Below are positions 1 through 50,709 of a stretch of 64,000 nt of DNA, in pieces. The position numbers and the translations under genes were made by a program. This stretch comes from Halobiforma lacisalsi AJ5 (GTDB lineage Archaea > Halobacteriota > Halobacteria > Halobacteriales > Natrialbaceae), in the NCBI RefSeq assembly GCF_000226975.2, contig NZ_CP019285.1, forward strand, positions 620,001 to 684,000, written 5' to 3'. The number at the start of each line of letters is the position of its first letter. Within the stretch, counting starts at the first letter, position 1. The notes below the pieces were generated by a model. That model ran no database searches and was not told the DNA's origin. It saw only the letters and a program-made list of their open reading frames with translations.

Positions 1-64
1 GCCGCAGAAGTCCACCGCTCGGATGGGTTCCTCCGGCTCACGACGTCGTTCGCGAGAGAAGTAT

Positions 65-164
65 CGCCTCCCGGATTTGAACCACGCGAAAGACTCGCTT
101 GCGCTCGTCTTTCGACTTCCCGCTCGCTGCGCTCGCGGGAACGGGGACAGCTCGATCTTCAGTC
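65..164 (-). pseudogene. tRNA-Phe 3' remnant split by a double hairpin
   Basis: Bases 65-83 match 210-228 and bases 142-164 match 228-250 of the intact tRNA-Phe gene about 145 bp away. The two matching pieces are adjacent in the tRNA (T arm and anticodon/variable region). Here they are separated by 58 bases (84-141) holding two hairpins: 87-94 pairs with 107-114, and 117-123 pairs with 135-141. The 5' half of the tRNA is absent, so this is a remnant and not a functional tRNA. The origin is inferred to be a partial duplication followed by insertion. Confidence 0.75.
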
Positions 165-206
165 AGGTCCAGTAACTTCTCGAGTGGGAATCGCGTAAAA
201 TCGGGA

Positions 207-280
207 TGCCGCCTCCCGGATTTGAACCGGGGACAGCTCGATCTTCAGTCGAGTGCTCTCCCAGTCTGAGCTAAGGCGGC
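207..280 (-). tRNA. tRNA-Phe (GAA)
   Basis: Read on the minus strand the sequence folds as a 74-nt cloverleaf. The acceptor stem pairs GCCGCCT with AGGCGGC, followed by discriminator A. The anticodon loop is CTGAAGA, giving anticodon GAA for phenylalanine. The T arm contains GGTTCAAATCC. CCA is not encoded, as is usual in haloarchaea. A partial copy of its 3' half lies at 65-164. Confidence 0.95.
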
Positions 281-500
281 TTACCTCTTTCTCCGTCCAT
301 GGTATAAAAAAGGATTTCGAATTGCGACGACTCCGATCGATTCGGTTACAGATCCGCCGAGCCCTCGAGATCGTCGGTCGAACCGTTCGAAATCGTTCCG
401 TACGGATGAGATACAATAGTTTGATCTTCCTTAACCGTCGTTTGTTGGATATTCGGATATTCAAGACACCCTTTTCCGGTCTGGCGGGTAACCCTGTGTT

Positions 501-947
501 ATGGAAGCACTTACCTCGAGTCAGGAGGAGCAAGAACTCTCCGCCGACACCATCCTGGAGCTGCTCGCCAATCGGCGGCGACGATACCTCCTGTACGCAC
601 TGCGGGGGCGGGAAGATCCGATCGAGCTCTCGACGCTCGCCGAACAGGTGGCCGGCTGGGAACACGACGTGCCGCCGGACGAAGTCGAGAAAAACGAGTA
701 CAAGAGCGTCTACGTCTCGTCGGTCCAGTGCCACGTCCCGAAACTGGCCGACGCCGGCGTCGTCGACCACGACGAGGACAACCACACCGTCGTCCTCTCG
801 GACAACTTCGACCAACTCGAGCCGTACCTCCGGGTCGTGATCAAAGACGAACCCGAAAACTCGACGTTGCACTCGGCGCTGCAGGCGGAGTCGGGTGACG
901 GGTTCTTCAGCCAGATCCGGGAGAACGTCGCACGCCTCAAGCACTGA
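501..947 (+). CDS. DUF7344-like winged-helix protein, putative transcriptional regulator
   Basis: A 148-residue acidic protein. Residues about 15-40 (DTILELLANRRRRYLLYAL) have the start typical of haloarchaeal DUF7344 helix-turn-helix proteins. They are followed by a winged helix with the VYVSSVQCHVPKLADAGVV recognition segment around residues 72-91, a pattern where a YxS..H.PKL helix precedes 'D.GVV'. No membrane segment or ligand domain is visible. It stands alone between tRNA-Phe and tRNA-Val genes. The DNA target is unknown, and the family assignment is from memory of the motif. Confidence 0.75.
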   Translation: MEALTSSQEEQELSADTILELLANRRRRYLLYALRGREDPIELSTLAEQVAGWEHDVPPDEVEKNEYKSVYVSSVQCHVPKLADAGVVDHDEDNHTVVLSDNFDQLEPYLRVVIKDEPENSTLHSALQAESGDGFFSQIRENVARLKH

Positions 948-1201
948 CTACTGCCGGGAAGCACGGACGAAACCGAGATAGTGGCGGATTACGGACGGCG
1001 GCTCGAGGTTTCCTCCGGATTGGCTCGTTTCGGATTCGGCGTCGGCGTCGGCGTCGGTTTTCGCGGCGCCGTCGATGATTCACGGTCGATCAGACAGTGA
1101 TGACCGCCGGTTTGTGACGAGGGGACGGACTTCTGGACGCGAAACGATGACCCTGGCTCGAGCGGGCAACTCTACAATAATCGCGTGAGCGCTAGGAATA
1201 G
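948..1201. other. Gene-free stretch before the tRNA-Val repeat
   Basis: No convincing coding frame is seen. The stretch contains a short run of GGCGTC hexamers near 1038-1055. It leads into the partial tRNA-Val copy at 1202. Confidence 0.4.
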
Positions 1202-1317
1202 TGGGCTCGGGCGGGTTCGAACCACCTCAACTTCGCTCGCTGCCGCTCGCTCGTTCCGTCGTTCGAACCCGCCCTCACATACATTTCTGTGGTTCATGCG
1301 TTGTTCACCACAGAAAT
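1202..1317. repeat. Partial tRNA-Val copy plus two hairpins abutting the tRNA 3' end
   Basis: Bases 1202-1226 repeat the last 25 bases of the tRNA-Val gene (1317-1341) in direct orientation, 115 bp away. Within the copy, 1209-1222 forms a perfect 14-bp inverted repeat with 1261-1274. A second perfect 11-bp hairpin pairs 1283-1293 with 1307-1317, and its right arm ends on the tRNA discriminator base. The whole unit looks like an element bounded by tRNA 3'-end copies. It is too short to carry an integrase. Confidence 0.75.
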
Positions 1318-1390
1318 GGGCTCGGGCGGGTTCGAACCACCGACCTCGGCCTTGTAAGGGCCGCGTCATAACCAGCTAGACCACGAGCCC
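1317..1390 (-). tRNA. tRNA-Val (TAC)
   Basis: Minus-strand cloverleaf of 74 nt. The acceptor stem is GGGCTCG/CGAGCCC with discriminator A. The anticodon stem CGGCC/GGCCG closes loop CTTACAA, giving anticodon TAC for valine. The T arm contains GGTTCGAACC. A 25-bp direct copy of its 3' end lies 115 bp downstream of the tRNA 3' end. Confidence 0.95.
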
Positions 1391-1419
1391 GCACCCGGAC
1401 CAAAGCCACCCGCCCGAAT

Positions 1420-1429
1420 AACATTTACT
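1420..1429 (+). promoter_or_regulatory. Probable TATA box for the DUF192 gene
   Basis: The AT-rich stretch AACATTTACT lies 22-31 nt before the ATG at 1451, the spacing expected for a leaderless haloarchaeal promoter. Confidence 0.45.
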
Positions 1430-1450
1430 TTCTCGAGTCGCACGACAACC

Positions 1451-2020
1451 ATGGCACTCGAGCGCACGTCGAAGGCCGTCCTCGTCCTCGCAGTCGTCGC
1501 GCTGGGCGCCGTTCTCCTCGCACAGGCCGGACTCGTCTCGGCTCCGTGGGGTGACGACCGGGCCGAGGTGCGGGTCTTCGACGCCGACGCCGACGCCGAC
1601 ACCGACGCCACACCCGGGTCCGAGAAGCCGAAAGCGACCGTCAACGTCGAGGTCGCCGACACTTGGAACGAGCGCTACACGGGCCTGAGTAATCACGACT
1701 CGCTCGAGGACGGCGAGGGCATGCTGTTCGTCCACGACAACGAGGCCGAACGGACCTACGTAATGCGTGAGATGGACTTCGACATCGACATCGTCTTCAT
1801 CGGCGCGGACCGCGAGATCACGGCGATCGAACACGCACGCGCCCCCGAACCCGGCGAGGACGGCGAAAATATCCAGTACACCGGCGAGGCGAAGTGGGTA
1901 CTCGAGGTGCCACGAGGGTACGCCAACGAGACCGGGATGGCGGTCGGCGACACGGTCGAGATCGATGTCGAACCCGAGGGCGAAGGGAGCGACGACGGGA
2001 ACGGCGCGGACGGGGGATAG
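1451..2020 (+). CDS. DUF192 family protein, membrane-anchored
   Basis: A 189-residue protein with an N-terminal hydrophobic segment at about residues 8-28, so it is probably anchored outside the cell membrane. It then has an Asp/Ala-rich linker and a DUF192 domain from about residue 58. Visible family features are the N-terminal 'V.VADTWNERYTGLS' strand-helix, 'GMLFVH', 'MREMDFDIDIVFI' and the closing 'VLEVPRGYANETGMAVGD'. The biochemical function of DUF192 is unknown. It ends 58 bp before the ABC exporter on the same strand and has its own candidate promoter. Confidence 0.88.
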   Translation: MALERTSKAVLVLAVVALGAVLLAQAGLVSAPWGDDRAEVRVFDADADADTDATPGSEKPKATVNVEVADTWNERYTGLSNHDSLEDGEGMLFVHDNEAERTYVMREMDFDIDIVFIGADREITAIEHARAPEPGEDGENIQYTGEAKWVLEVPRGYANETGMAVGDTVEIDVEPEGEGSDDGNGADGG

Positions 2021-2045
2021 TCGGCGTATTTCGATTCGTAGCAAA

Positions 2046-2055
2046 CGCTTATTGG
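2046..2055 (+). promoter_or_regulatory. Probable TATA box for the ABC exporter gene
   Basis: The stretch CGCTTATTGG lies 24-33 nt before the ATG at 2079. This supports that start over the longer open frame, which extends upstream into the preceding gene. Confidence 0.4.
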
Positions 2056-2078
2056 TACCGGTCCCCGAAGCGGATACG

Positions 2079-4091
2079 ATGAGCGGAAGCGGCGTCGACT
2101 GGGACGACGATGACCCGTTCGAGGAGCAGCGCGAGGAGATCGAGAACCCGATGAAGCGGCTGTTCCTCGAGTACGGCCGCGATTACTCGTTCCACGCGAT
2201 CGTCGGCATCGTCGCGAGCGTGTTCGCCCGCGTACTGGATCTGCTGCCGCCGGTGATGCTGGCGGTGGCGCTCGACGCGGTGTTCCGCGAGGAGGCTGGC
2301 AGCACCAGTTACACGGAGGCGCTCCCGTTCGGTGGCGGCTTCGTGGAGCCGTACGTCCCCGCCTCGCAGGTGGAACAGTTCTACCTGACTGTCGGCGTCA
2401 TCGCCGGCGCGTTCTTCTTCGGGGCAGCGTTTCACTGGCTCCGCAACTGGGGGTTCAACGCCTTCGCCCAGAACATCCAGCACGATATCCGGACCGACAC
2501 CTACGACAAGATGCAGCGGCTGAACATGGACTTCTTCGCCGACAAGCAGACCGGGGAGATGATGTCCATCCTCTCGAACGACGTCAACCGCCTCGAGCGG
2601 TTCCTGAACGACGGAATGAACTCCCTGTTCCGGATGGCGGTGATGGTCCTCGGGATCGGCGTCATCCTCTTTGCGTACAACTGGCAGCTCGCGCTGGTCG
2701 CGTTGCTCCCAGTGCCGCTGATCGCCGTGTTCACCTACTTCTTCGTCAGGATCATCCAGCCCAAGTACGCCGCCGTCCGCTCGGCCGTCGGCACGGTCAA
2801 CTCCCGGCTCGAGAACAACCTCGGCGGGATCCAGGTGATCAAATCGAGCACGACGGAGGAGTACGAGTCCGAACGCGTCGACGACGTCTCCCGGGACTAC
2901 TTCGACGCGAACTGGGACGCCATCGAGACGCGCATCAAGTTCTTCCCCGGACTCCGGGTGATCGCGGGGATCGGCTTCGTCGTCACGTTCCTCGTCGGCG
3001 GCCTGTGGGTCTTCCAGGGACCGCCCGGGCCGTTCACCGGCACTCTGAGCGAGGGGGAGTTCGTCGTGTTCATCCTCTACACGCAGCGGTTCATCTGGCC
3101 GATGGCCCAGTTCGGCCAGATCATCAACATGTACCAGCGCGCCCGCGCGTCCTCGGCCCGGATGTTCGGCCTGATGGACGAGCCGAGCCGGGTCGCGGAG
3201 ACGCCCGACGCGACGGACCTCGAGGTGGACGAGGGCCGCGTCGAGTACGATCACGTGACGTTCGGTTACGACGAAGAGGAGACGATCGTCGAGGACATCG
3301 ACTTCACCGTCAACGGCGGCGAGACGCTTGCGCTGGTCGGTCCCACCGGCGCGGGCAAGTCGACCGTCCTCAAACTTCTCCTGCGGATGTACGACGTTCG
3401 AAAGAGCGAAGCTCTTTCGAGCCAATCAGAATCGCAGAGCGATTCTGATGACGTCGATCGAGGTGCGATCAGGGTCGACGGCCAGGACATCCGCGAGGTG
3501 ACCCTCGAGAGCCTGCGCGAGTCGATCGGCTACGTCAGCCAGGACACGTTCCTCTTCTACGGGACCGTCGAGGAGAACATCAAGTACGGCACGTTCGACG
3601 CCGACCGCGAGGAAGTGATCGAGGCCGCGAAGATGGCCGAGGCCCACGAGTTCATCCGGAACCTGCCGGAGGGCTACGACACGGAGGTCGGCGAACGCGG
3701 TGTCAAGCTCTCGGGCGGCCAGCGCCAGCGGATCTCCATCGCACGGGCGATCCTCAAGGACCCCGACATCCTCGTACTGGACGAGGCGACAAGCGACGTC
3801 GACACCGAGACGGAGATGCTCATTCAGCGCTCGATCGACGAACTCGCCGCCGATCGTACCACGTTCGCCATCGCCCACCGGCTCTCGACGATCAGAGACG
3901 CCGATCAGATCCTCGTTCTCGAGGACGGCCGGATCGTCGAACGCGGCGAACACGAGGAACTGCTCGAGAACGGCGGGCTCTATTCGCACCTCTGGGGCGT
4001 CCAGGCGGGCGAGATCGACGAGTTACCGCAGGAGTTCATCGAGCGTGCCCAGCGCCGGCAGGCGCGGACGGAGGTCGGGAACGACGACTGA
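2079..4091 (+). CDS. ABC transporter, fused permease and ATPase (exporter type)
   Basis: A 670-residue half-transporter. An N-terminal six-helix membrane domain (about 30-340) is followed by a nucleotide-binding domain with Walker A GPTGAGKST at 421-429, signature LSGGQ at 544-548, Walker B ILVLDEA near 565-571 and H-loop AHRLST near 602. This is the ABCB/MsbA-like exporter layout, probably acting as a homodimer. The substrate cannot be told. The start at 2079 begins the acidic stretch MSGSGVDWDDDD; the frame is open further upstream, but that extension overlaps the previous gene. Odd feature: residues 441-457 (RKSEALSSQSESQSDSD), between Walker A and the Q-loop, are encoded by two perfect palindromes absent from the usual family pattern. 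Confidence 0.92.
   Translation: MSGSGVDWDDDDPFEEQREEIENPMKRLFLEYGRDYSFHAIVGIVASVFARVLDLLPPVMLAVALDAVFREEAGSTSYTEALPFGGGFVEPYVPASQVEQFYLTVGVIAGAFFFGAAFHWLRNWGFNAFAQNIQHDIRTDTYDKMQRLNMDFFADKQTGEMMSILSNDVNRLERFLNDGMNSLFRMAVMVLGIGVILFAYNWQLALVALLPVPLIAVFTYFFVRIIQPKYAAVRSAVGTVNSRLENNLGGIQVIKSSTTEEYESERVDDVSRDYFDANWDAIETRIKFFPGLRVIAGIGFVVTFLVGGLWVFQGPPGPFTGTLSEGEFVVFILYTQRFIWPMAQFGQIINMYQRARASSARMFGLMDEPSRVAETPDATDLEVDEGRVEYDHVTFGYDEEETIVEDIDFTVNGGETLALVGPTGAGKSTVLKLLLRMYDVRKSEALSSQSESQSDSDDVDRGAIRVDGQDIREVTLESLRESIGYVSQDTFLFYGTVEENIKYGTFDADREEVIEAAKMAEAHEFIRNLPEGYDTEVGERGVKLSGGQRQRISIARAILKDPDILVLDEATSDVDTETEMLIQRSIDELAADRTTFAIAHRLSTIRDADQILVLEDGRIVERGEHEELLENGGLYSHLWGVQAGEIDELPQEFIERAQRRQARTEVGNDD
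3398..3449. repeat. In-frame double hairpin inside the ABC transporter ATPase domain
   Basis: TCGAAAGAGC (3398-3407) pairs perfectly with 3411-3420 across a 3-nt loop. Five bases later ATCAGAATCGC (3425-3435) pairs perfectly with 3439-3449 across a 3-nt loop. The insert keeps the reading frame and adds about 17 Ser/Glu/Asp-rich residues in a loop. It resembles the paired hairpins next to tRNA-Phe. Confidence 0.85.
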
Positions 4092-50428: not shown

Positions 50429-50462
50429 TGAGCGAACGAAGCGAGCGACGTGCGCCGGTGGT
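50429..50462. repeat. Hairpin and short 5' copy of tRNA-Gly
   Basis: CGCTCGCTT (from 50421) pairs with AAGCGAGCG (to 50447). This is followed by GCGCCGGTGGT at 50452-50462, which repeats the first 11 bases of the tRNA-Gly gene at 50518. It is one of several tRNA-end copies next to hairpins in this window. Confidence 0.6.
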
Positions 50463-50517
50463 GAGACGGACGGCGTCCGTCGAAGTACGGCGCGCAAACG
50501 AACGAAGTGAGTGCAGT

Positions 50518-50588
50518 GCGCCGGTGGTCTAGTGGTAGGACATGAGCTTCCCAAGCTCATAGCCCGGGTTCAATTCCCGGCCGGCGCA
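50518..50588 (+). tRNA. tRNA-Gly (CCC)
   Basis: Plus-strand cloverleaf of 71 nt. The acceptor stem is GCGCCGG/CCGGCGC with discriminator A, and the anticodon stem TGAGC/GCTCA closes loop TTCCCAA, giving anticodon CCC for glycine. The T arm is GGGTTCAATTCCC. Both ends are partly copied nearby: 11 bp of its 5' end at 50452 and 24 bp of its 3' end at 50686. Confidence 0.94.
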
Positions 50589-50709
50589 TTTCCTGCGAAC
50601 GTCAGTGAGCAGTGAAATCACCGGCGGGAATTGAGGGAGACGAGTCCCAGCCCGCACAACGGAGTGAGCAGGGACGTCTCGGCGTGGTTCAATTCCCGGC
50701 CGGCGCATT
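50589..50709 (+). repeat. tRNA-Gly 3'-end copy with inverted copy and hairpin
   Basis: Bases 50686-50709 repeat 50567-50590 exactly (24 bp, offset 119). Between them, 50621-50634 is a near-perfect inverted copy of the same segment, and 50638-50646 with 50671-50680 pairs imperfectly. The arrangement (direct 3' copy, inverted T-arm copy, hairpin) parallels the tRNA-Val repeat at 1202-1317. No coding frame is seen from 50589 to 50929. Confidence 0.7.

Follow-up and report, generated by a model that had tools for sequence, protein, structure and literature searches.

The window, by which we mean the whole stretch of 64,000 nucleotides that was analysed, carries near its start a tRNA-Val(TAC) gene that is followed on its 3' side by a short palindrome-rich unit (Table 1). 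Read from the 3' end of the tRNA, this unit begins with hairpin A, which is followed by the T arm in inverted copy and then by a palindromic cassette, and it ends in a direct copy of the tRNA 3' end. The first-pass annotation had described a 25-bp direct copy at an offset of 115 bp, a 14-bp inverted repeat made with the T arm of that copy, and an 11-bp hairpin abutting the discriminator base, and had taken these parts to form one compact unit. All of this was borne out: 1202-1226 is 100% identical to 1317-1341, the inverted repeat is a perfect 14 nt at 1261-1274 within a stretch of 17 nt (1258-1274) matching at 94%, and the hairpin is perfect over 12 bp with its arms at 1282-1293 and 1307-1318, while the grouping into one unit agrees with the recurrence of the same plan at other tRNA genes. 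One arm of hairpin A covers the last two bases of tRNA-Val(TAC) and the hairpin therefore starts directly at the discriminator. When the unit was compared with units at other tRNAs, the copied core was found to be 22 nt (GGTTC...A, 1202-1223), and the extra GGT in the 25-bp match is the end of a shared cassette that matches tRNA-Val(TAC) by coincidence. The 129-nt trailer of this tRNA has a fold energy of -61.3 kcal/mol (z of -7.1 compared to shuffles) and in a chance test none of 100 shuffles reproduced such a hairpin as hairpin A. Chance palindromes are ruled out as the source of the unit by the shuffles and by the covariation described below. When positions 1-3000 of the window were searched with the covariance models of Rfam 15, the tRNA model alone reached its gathering score and the unit matched no known RNA family.

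Table 1. Positions of the tRNA genes, their downstream units and the parts of the tRNA-Val(TAC) unit in the window.
Feature	Positions	Strand	Remarks
Host gene tRNA-Val(TAC)	1317-1390	-	ARAGORN and Rfam RF00005
Hairpin A	1282-1316	-	Directly 3' of the discriminator base; stem TTTCTGTGGT/ACCACAGAAA, loop GAACAACGCATGA; covariation in 57 distinct homologues
Inverted arm	1261-1274	-	Reverse complement of the T loop and 3' T-stem strand of the tRNA
Palindromic cassette GACGGAACGAGCGAGCGGCAGCGAGCGAAGTTGAGGT	1224-1260	-	Cassette family also found at other tRNAs
Direct copy of tRNA 3' end	1202-1223	-	T loop, T-stem 3' strand, acceptor 3' strand and discriminator; the 25-bp match reaches 1226
Whole probable insertion unit, 115 bp	1202-1316	-	
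tRNA-Phe(GAA), the next tRNA	207-280	-	Diverged 3'-end copy downstream
Diverged unit behind tRNA-Phe	62-206	-	Partial body copy, two palindromes with the tandem G.A motif, 3'-end copy at 62-81 (18/20)
Unit behind tRNA-Gly(CCC)	50590-50707	+	tRNA at 50517-50589; 22-bp 3'-end copy at 50686-50707

Several other observations were made in the window and in its genome. The unit behind tRNA-Phe also repeats, at 82-206, part of the anticodon and variable region (CTGAAGATCGAGCTGTCCCC), a copy longer than usual. Upstream of tRNA-Gly(CCC), at about 50440-50516, there are palindromes and a short copy of the 5' end of this tRNA (GTGCGCCGGTGG). A palindromic stretch, GTTCGAAAGAGCGAAGCTCTTTCGAG...AGAATCGCAGAGCGATTCTGATGACG, lies in frame at 3394-3453 within an ABC-transporter ORF (1767-4091, + strand), to which it adds a serine-rich segment, and it looks like an in-frame palindromic insertion. 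Elsewhere in the genome, the region C1:4088300-4092800 (L210) has a 157-bp direct repeat, at 716-872 and 2908-3064 of the region, consisting of the 3' part of tRNA-Gly(TCC) together with its whole hairpin unit and flanking about 2 kb with short ORFs; this tRNA, which carries a unit, is the site of a larger insertion or duplication. The tRNA-Arg(GCG) gene (L070; C1:603082-603154) is followed by an array of longer repeats in which different palindromes stand between the tRNA 3'-end copies, a variant form of the units. Finally, in four genomes mobile elements are present exactly at the 3' end of tRNA-Val(TAC) (L079, L080, L082, and L088); the starts of those in G095 and G041 are similar to each other and those in G044 and G079 have a hairpin unit on their far side.

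When tRNA-Val(TAC) together with its unit was used as a BLAST query, 123 of the 125 genomes of the family and all 29 of its 29 genera were matched, and in most of the matching genomes the match runs on through the unit, often through 2 or 3 units in tandem. The tRNA-Val(TAC) unit is present in most genera of the family, and units are found in other families of the class too. All tRNA genes were then surveyed in three genomes for a copy of their own 3' end, counted when at least 15 of 20 nt matched no more than 300 nt downstream of the gene. Such a copy was found behind 19 of the 46 tRNA genes in the window's genome, 29 of 42 in its congener G083, and 24 of 43 in G178 from another family, and the upstream control in the same genomes gave 0, 0, and 1, respectively. 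Copies of tRNA 5' ends upstream of the genes are not general (0/45). Haloarchaeal tRNA genes had been proposed by the first-pass annotation as the place to look for the unit, and units of the same plan are indeed found there, class-wide and behind about half of a genome's tRNA genes; that it might occur nowhere else, which the same annotation had allowed for, does not apply, as it recurs across the Halobacteria. Occupancy of the tRNA genes varies among the species of one genus. With a strict hairpin A consensus, 68 stretches were found in a one-genome-per-species collection of 84,980 species and all but one of them are haloarchaeal. These stretches and the window's own genome gave 76 motif matches, out of which 53 start 5-11 nt behind a tRNA, 12 further ones lie within 600 nt of a tRNA, and most of the remaining ones follow a visible tRNA-end copy; in the own genome every occurrence of the consensus follows a tRNA 3' end or a copy of such an end. 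A generic haloarchaeal hairpin was considered and rejected because in the window the strict tandem G.A hairpin (stem of at least 4 bp) occurs only behind tRNA-Phe, hairpin A of tRNA-Val having one changed pair here and therefore being missed by the strict pattern. As for spread outside the Halobacteria, the degenerate pattern gave too much noise in G+C-rich genomes for a decision, and the own-genome pattern for one cassette type was too loose to inform.

The 201 units that were extracted have a median length of 119 nt, most of them being 100-140 nt and the full range being 68-200 nt, and they form arrays of 1 to 5; part of this set was fetched with the hairpin A pattern and the unbiased subset is 123 units. 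The common plan is hairpin A, a short linker, the inverted arm, the palindromic cassette, and the direct arm that runs from the T loop to the discriminator. The inverted and direct copies of the local T arm form the base of a second hairpin, hairpin B, the top of which is a palindromic cassette that is shared between tRNA genes. When the inverted arms were compared with a set of tRNAs in a gapped test (an earlier ungapped version gave a weak result), the match to the own tRNA was in the top 5% in 72 of the 123 unbiased units, where 6 were expected. At tRNA-Val(TAC) the base after TTCGAA varies by lineage and the inverted arm varies along with it: C in the tRNA goes with G in the arm in 54 of 57 and T goes with A in 10 of 12. 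The cassettes, on the other hand, are similar at different tRNAs in 99 pairs compared to 0 pairs when cassettes were shuffled. An identical 43-nt cassette is present in different species behind tRNA-Val(TAC) (L010 and L081) and behind tRNA-Phe (L009), each time with the arms of the own tRNA. When ten whole genomes were searched for the core of this cassette family with up to 3 mismatches, 14 matches were found and the reversed control gave 0. A tRNA lies 48-284 nt ahead of each of the 14, which are all on its sense strand; eight different tRNAs are represented and the arms are in each case those of the tRNA concerned. The independent sites are somewhat fewer than 14 as there are two close pairs (G046 and G049), in each of which one member was located twice. 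Of 47 arrays of at least two units, which are phylogenetically non-independent, 26 have a first copy of the tRNA end that is preserved better than the last and 3 show the opposite. This supports that new units enter next to the tRNA, the arrays growing at the tRNA end and decaying at the far one.

The folding of the units is strand-specific. The tandem G.A motif (CGARC..GYGAG) under the loop of hairpin A is found in the tRNA-sense orientation in 91 of the 123 unbiased units and in the antisense orientation in 1, and the sense-strand fold is the better one in 169 of the 201 units compared to 55% in shuffles. In 57 distinct sequences of hairpin A behind tRNA-Val(TAC), stem positions are paired in 85% of cells, and when the arms of the same sequences were swapped between genomes in 200 trials, this fell to 66% with a maximum of 71%. 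One pair of the stem is G-C in 20, C-G in 16, and T-A in 15 sequences, and for the pair above the tandem G.A 37 sequences have A-T and 19 have G-C; the register was set on the two G.A positions, so that their invariance, and partly that of the pairs just above, is by construction. A kink-turn reading of hairpin A was rejected, since both pairs above the tandem G.A show Watson-Crick behaviour and one of them covaries. Since the bias follows the sense strand of the tRNA, whichever strand of the chromosome carries the gene, the folded form is likely to be RNA or a single DNA strand exposed by transcription, but strand-specific structure could instead stem from selection on a transcript.

Exact presence and absence of a unit was found at three sites. 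The tRNA-Leu(CAG) gene of the window's genome has one 126-bp unit with a 22-bp repeat of the tRNA 3' end, and in G083 the end of this tRNA is joined exactly to the sequence that is found after the 22-bp copy, which makes it an empty site. The empty form is shared by G080, G083, and over 20 genomes from other genera, and the filled form by the window's genome (G000) and G081; the unit of G107 is related and that of G088 is decayed. From this spread of empty and filled sites, insertion is the simplest polarity at tRNA-Leu(CAG), which is the one site where insertion over deletion is polarised. At tRNA-Phe one exact pair is G061, which is empty, and G060, which is filled with the shared cassette, and a second is G056, which is empty, and Salinadaptatus, which is filled with a copy matching at 17 of 20, so that the repeat is shorter there or has decayed. 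These two pairs are unpolarised because an exact deletion between the repeats would also restore an empty site. Insertions could also be mimicked if species exchange whole tRNA regions by homologous recombination.

Taken as a whole, we regard it as probable that the unit, which is non-coding and about 100-140 bp long, is an element of the insertion type, that its targets are the 3' ends of tRNA genes in Halobacteria, and that it moves as a folded single strand. Insertion would take place exactly at the junction of the tRNA discriminator with the flanking DNA, so that the tRNA stays intact and the far end of the unit carries up to 22 bp of copied tRNA 3' end, from the T loop to the discriminator; further units would insert beside the tRNA and so give rise to tandem arrays. 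The strand predicted to fold into the two hairpins is the tRNA-sense strand, and the moving form may be single-stranded DNA or a cDNA of the tRNA trailer, which would be joined to the tRNA by a putative recombinase acting in trans or by homologous recombination at the T-arm core. Ends that match every host tRNA anew are odd for a classical mobile element and may hint at local copying or gene conversion; the inverted arm may be rebuilt at each tRNA in either of these ways, the copying then taking place during insertion. More tentatively, and with somewhat less than even confidence, we propose a minimal mobile unit, a strand-specific folded RNA or single-stranded DNA of about 100 nt that homes to tRNA 3' ends, swaps its terminal cassette between tRNAs, has its arms rebuilt from the tRNA that it enters, and has built up arrays behind about half of the tRNA genes of the class. 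When viral contigs were searched with stringent patterns no carrier of the unit was found, and a loose pattern gave uninformative matches only.

The alternative that fares best, although we consider it unlikely, is that these are functional RNA trailers in which hairpins A and B serve in transcription termination or in tRNA 3' processing, so that selection keeps the folds and the arrays are a by-product. The sense-strand specificity of the tandem G.A motifs and the covariation of hairpin A would fit with this, as would the position of the hairpin directly at the RNase Z site and the lack of long T runs behind tRNA-Val(TAC). There is also a precedent, as in Haloferax volcanii a hairpin terminator has been confirmed (59% termination) and two 3' ends were found behind tRNA-Pro (PMC7237163). 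T runs, however, are alike at tRNAs with and without units, and the idea that the hairpins replace T-run terminators was therefore rejected. Many tRNA genes have no unit, occupancy shifts within a genus, and empty sites are widespread at tRNA-Leu(CAG), which shows that the unit is dispensable at a given tRNA; moreover, selection on trailers leaves the tRNA-end copies, the shared cassettes, and the exact insertions unexplained. A trailer function is possible in addition to insertion, but as occupancy changes between congeners it is not required at any given tRNA.

It is less likely still that there is no mobile unit and that a mutational process, such as template switching at the T-arm palindrome, replication slippage, or gene conversion, makes and homogenises the copies. 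The arms do match the local tRNA and tandem arrays do exchange modules between related species, as such a process would have it, but it does not account for one cassette family that, in the ten genomes searched, is confined to positions behind eight tRNAs, or for exact empty sites; the G.A mismatches are retained instead of being corrected into perfect palindromes, and the 3' end of the tRNA alone is affected, 5' ends having no such copies upstream (0 of 45). It is very improbable that the copies are attachment sites left behind as scars when viruses or plasmids integrated at tRNA 3' ends were excised or deleted: the copied stretch is the classical tyrosine-recombinase core and elements are integrated exactly at tRNA-Val in G044, G079, G095, and G041, yet the ends of these four real integrations are quite unlike the unit, unit lengths cluster near 119 nt, the two-hairpin plan and the cassettes are common to different genera and families, and the stringent viral-contig scans gave no carrier. 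A single prophage deletion scar, the other way in which the first-pass annotation thought that its unit might be explained, is ruled out by wide occurrence, similar lengths, shared cassettes, and exact empty sites.

If the units are indeed insertion elements, then a large share of haloarchaeal tRNA genes carry downstream insertion units that neither Rfam nor the open-licence papers searched were found to describe. Partial tRNA copies, which recur and are open to misreading as prophage scars, would have their explanation in these units. The finding would also complicate the prediction of attachment sites and of tRNA 3' ends, and it would offer a compact natural system for the recombination of folded single strands into tRNA genes. 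Model haloarchaea allow the mobility of the unit to be tested directly.

The tyrT/rtT locus of Escherichia coli has repeats that follow a tRNA in tandem, each of them with a copy of its 3' end; these are about 178 bp long and belong to one locus in enterobacteria. The arrays found here are alike in having tandem units that each repeat the tRNA 3' end, but the rtT repeats are not known to have an inverted arm or an exchangeable hairpin cassette. The folded sites of integron attC arrays are strand-specific, with arms that are inverted and a terminal structure that varies, and the arrays grow at one fixed end. They offer an analogy for strand-specific folds with inverted arms and for growth at one end; however, at about 119 nt the units are too short to hold gene cassettes and their arms are tRNA sequence.

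The nearest known relatives are the PATEs, MITEs, and small mobile repeats (SMRs) of Haloquadratum walsbyi and the integrative elements that target tRNAs, and each of them fails or misses a defining feature. Like the former, the units are short, non-coding, palindrome-bearing haloarchaeal repeats without a transposase of their own (PMC3119063), and mobile ones if our reading is right. PATEs and SMRs, however, make no target duplications (PMC3119063), whereas each unit here ends in a copy of the tRNA 3' end, which sets it apart from PATEs. MITEs have fixed transposon ends, whereas the arms of the units differ between tRNAs and follow the host tRNA, so that judged on its arms the unit is not a MITE; and unlike all three, the cassette that was searched for here was found only behind tRNA genes. 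With the integrative elements of archaeal tyrosine recombinases, for example the SNJ2 family (PMC8371274), the units share the target, the tRNA that stays intact, and a downstream copy that amounts to a second attachment-like site. At 68-200 nt they are too short to encode a tyrosine integrase of their own, although one acting in trans may be used. They differ in being gene-free and about 120 bp long, and in having two conserved hairpins, arrays of up to 5, and the same cassettes at many tRNAs.
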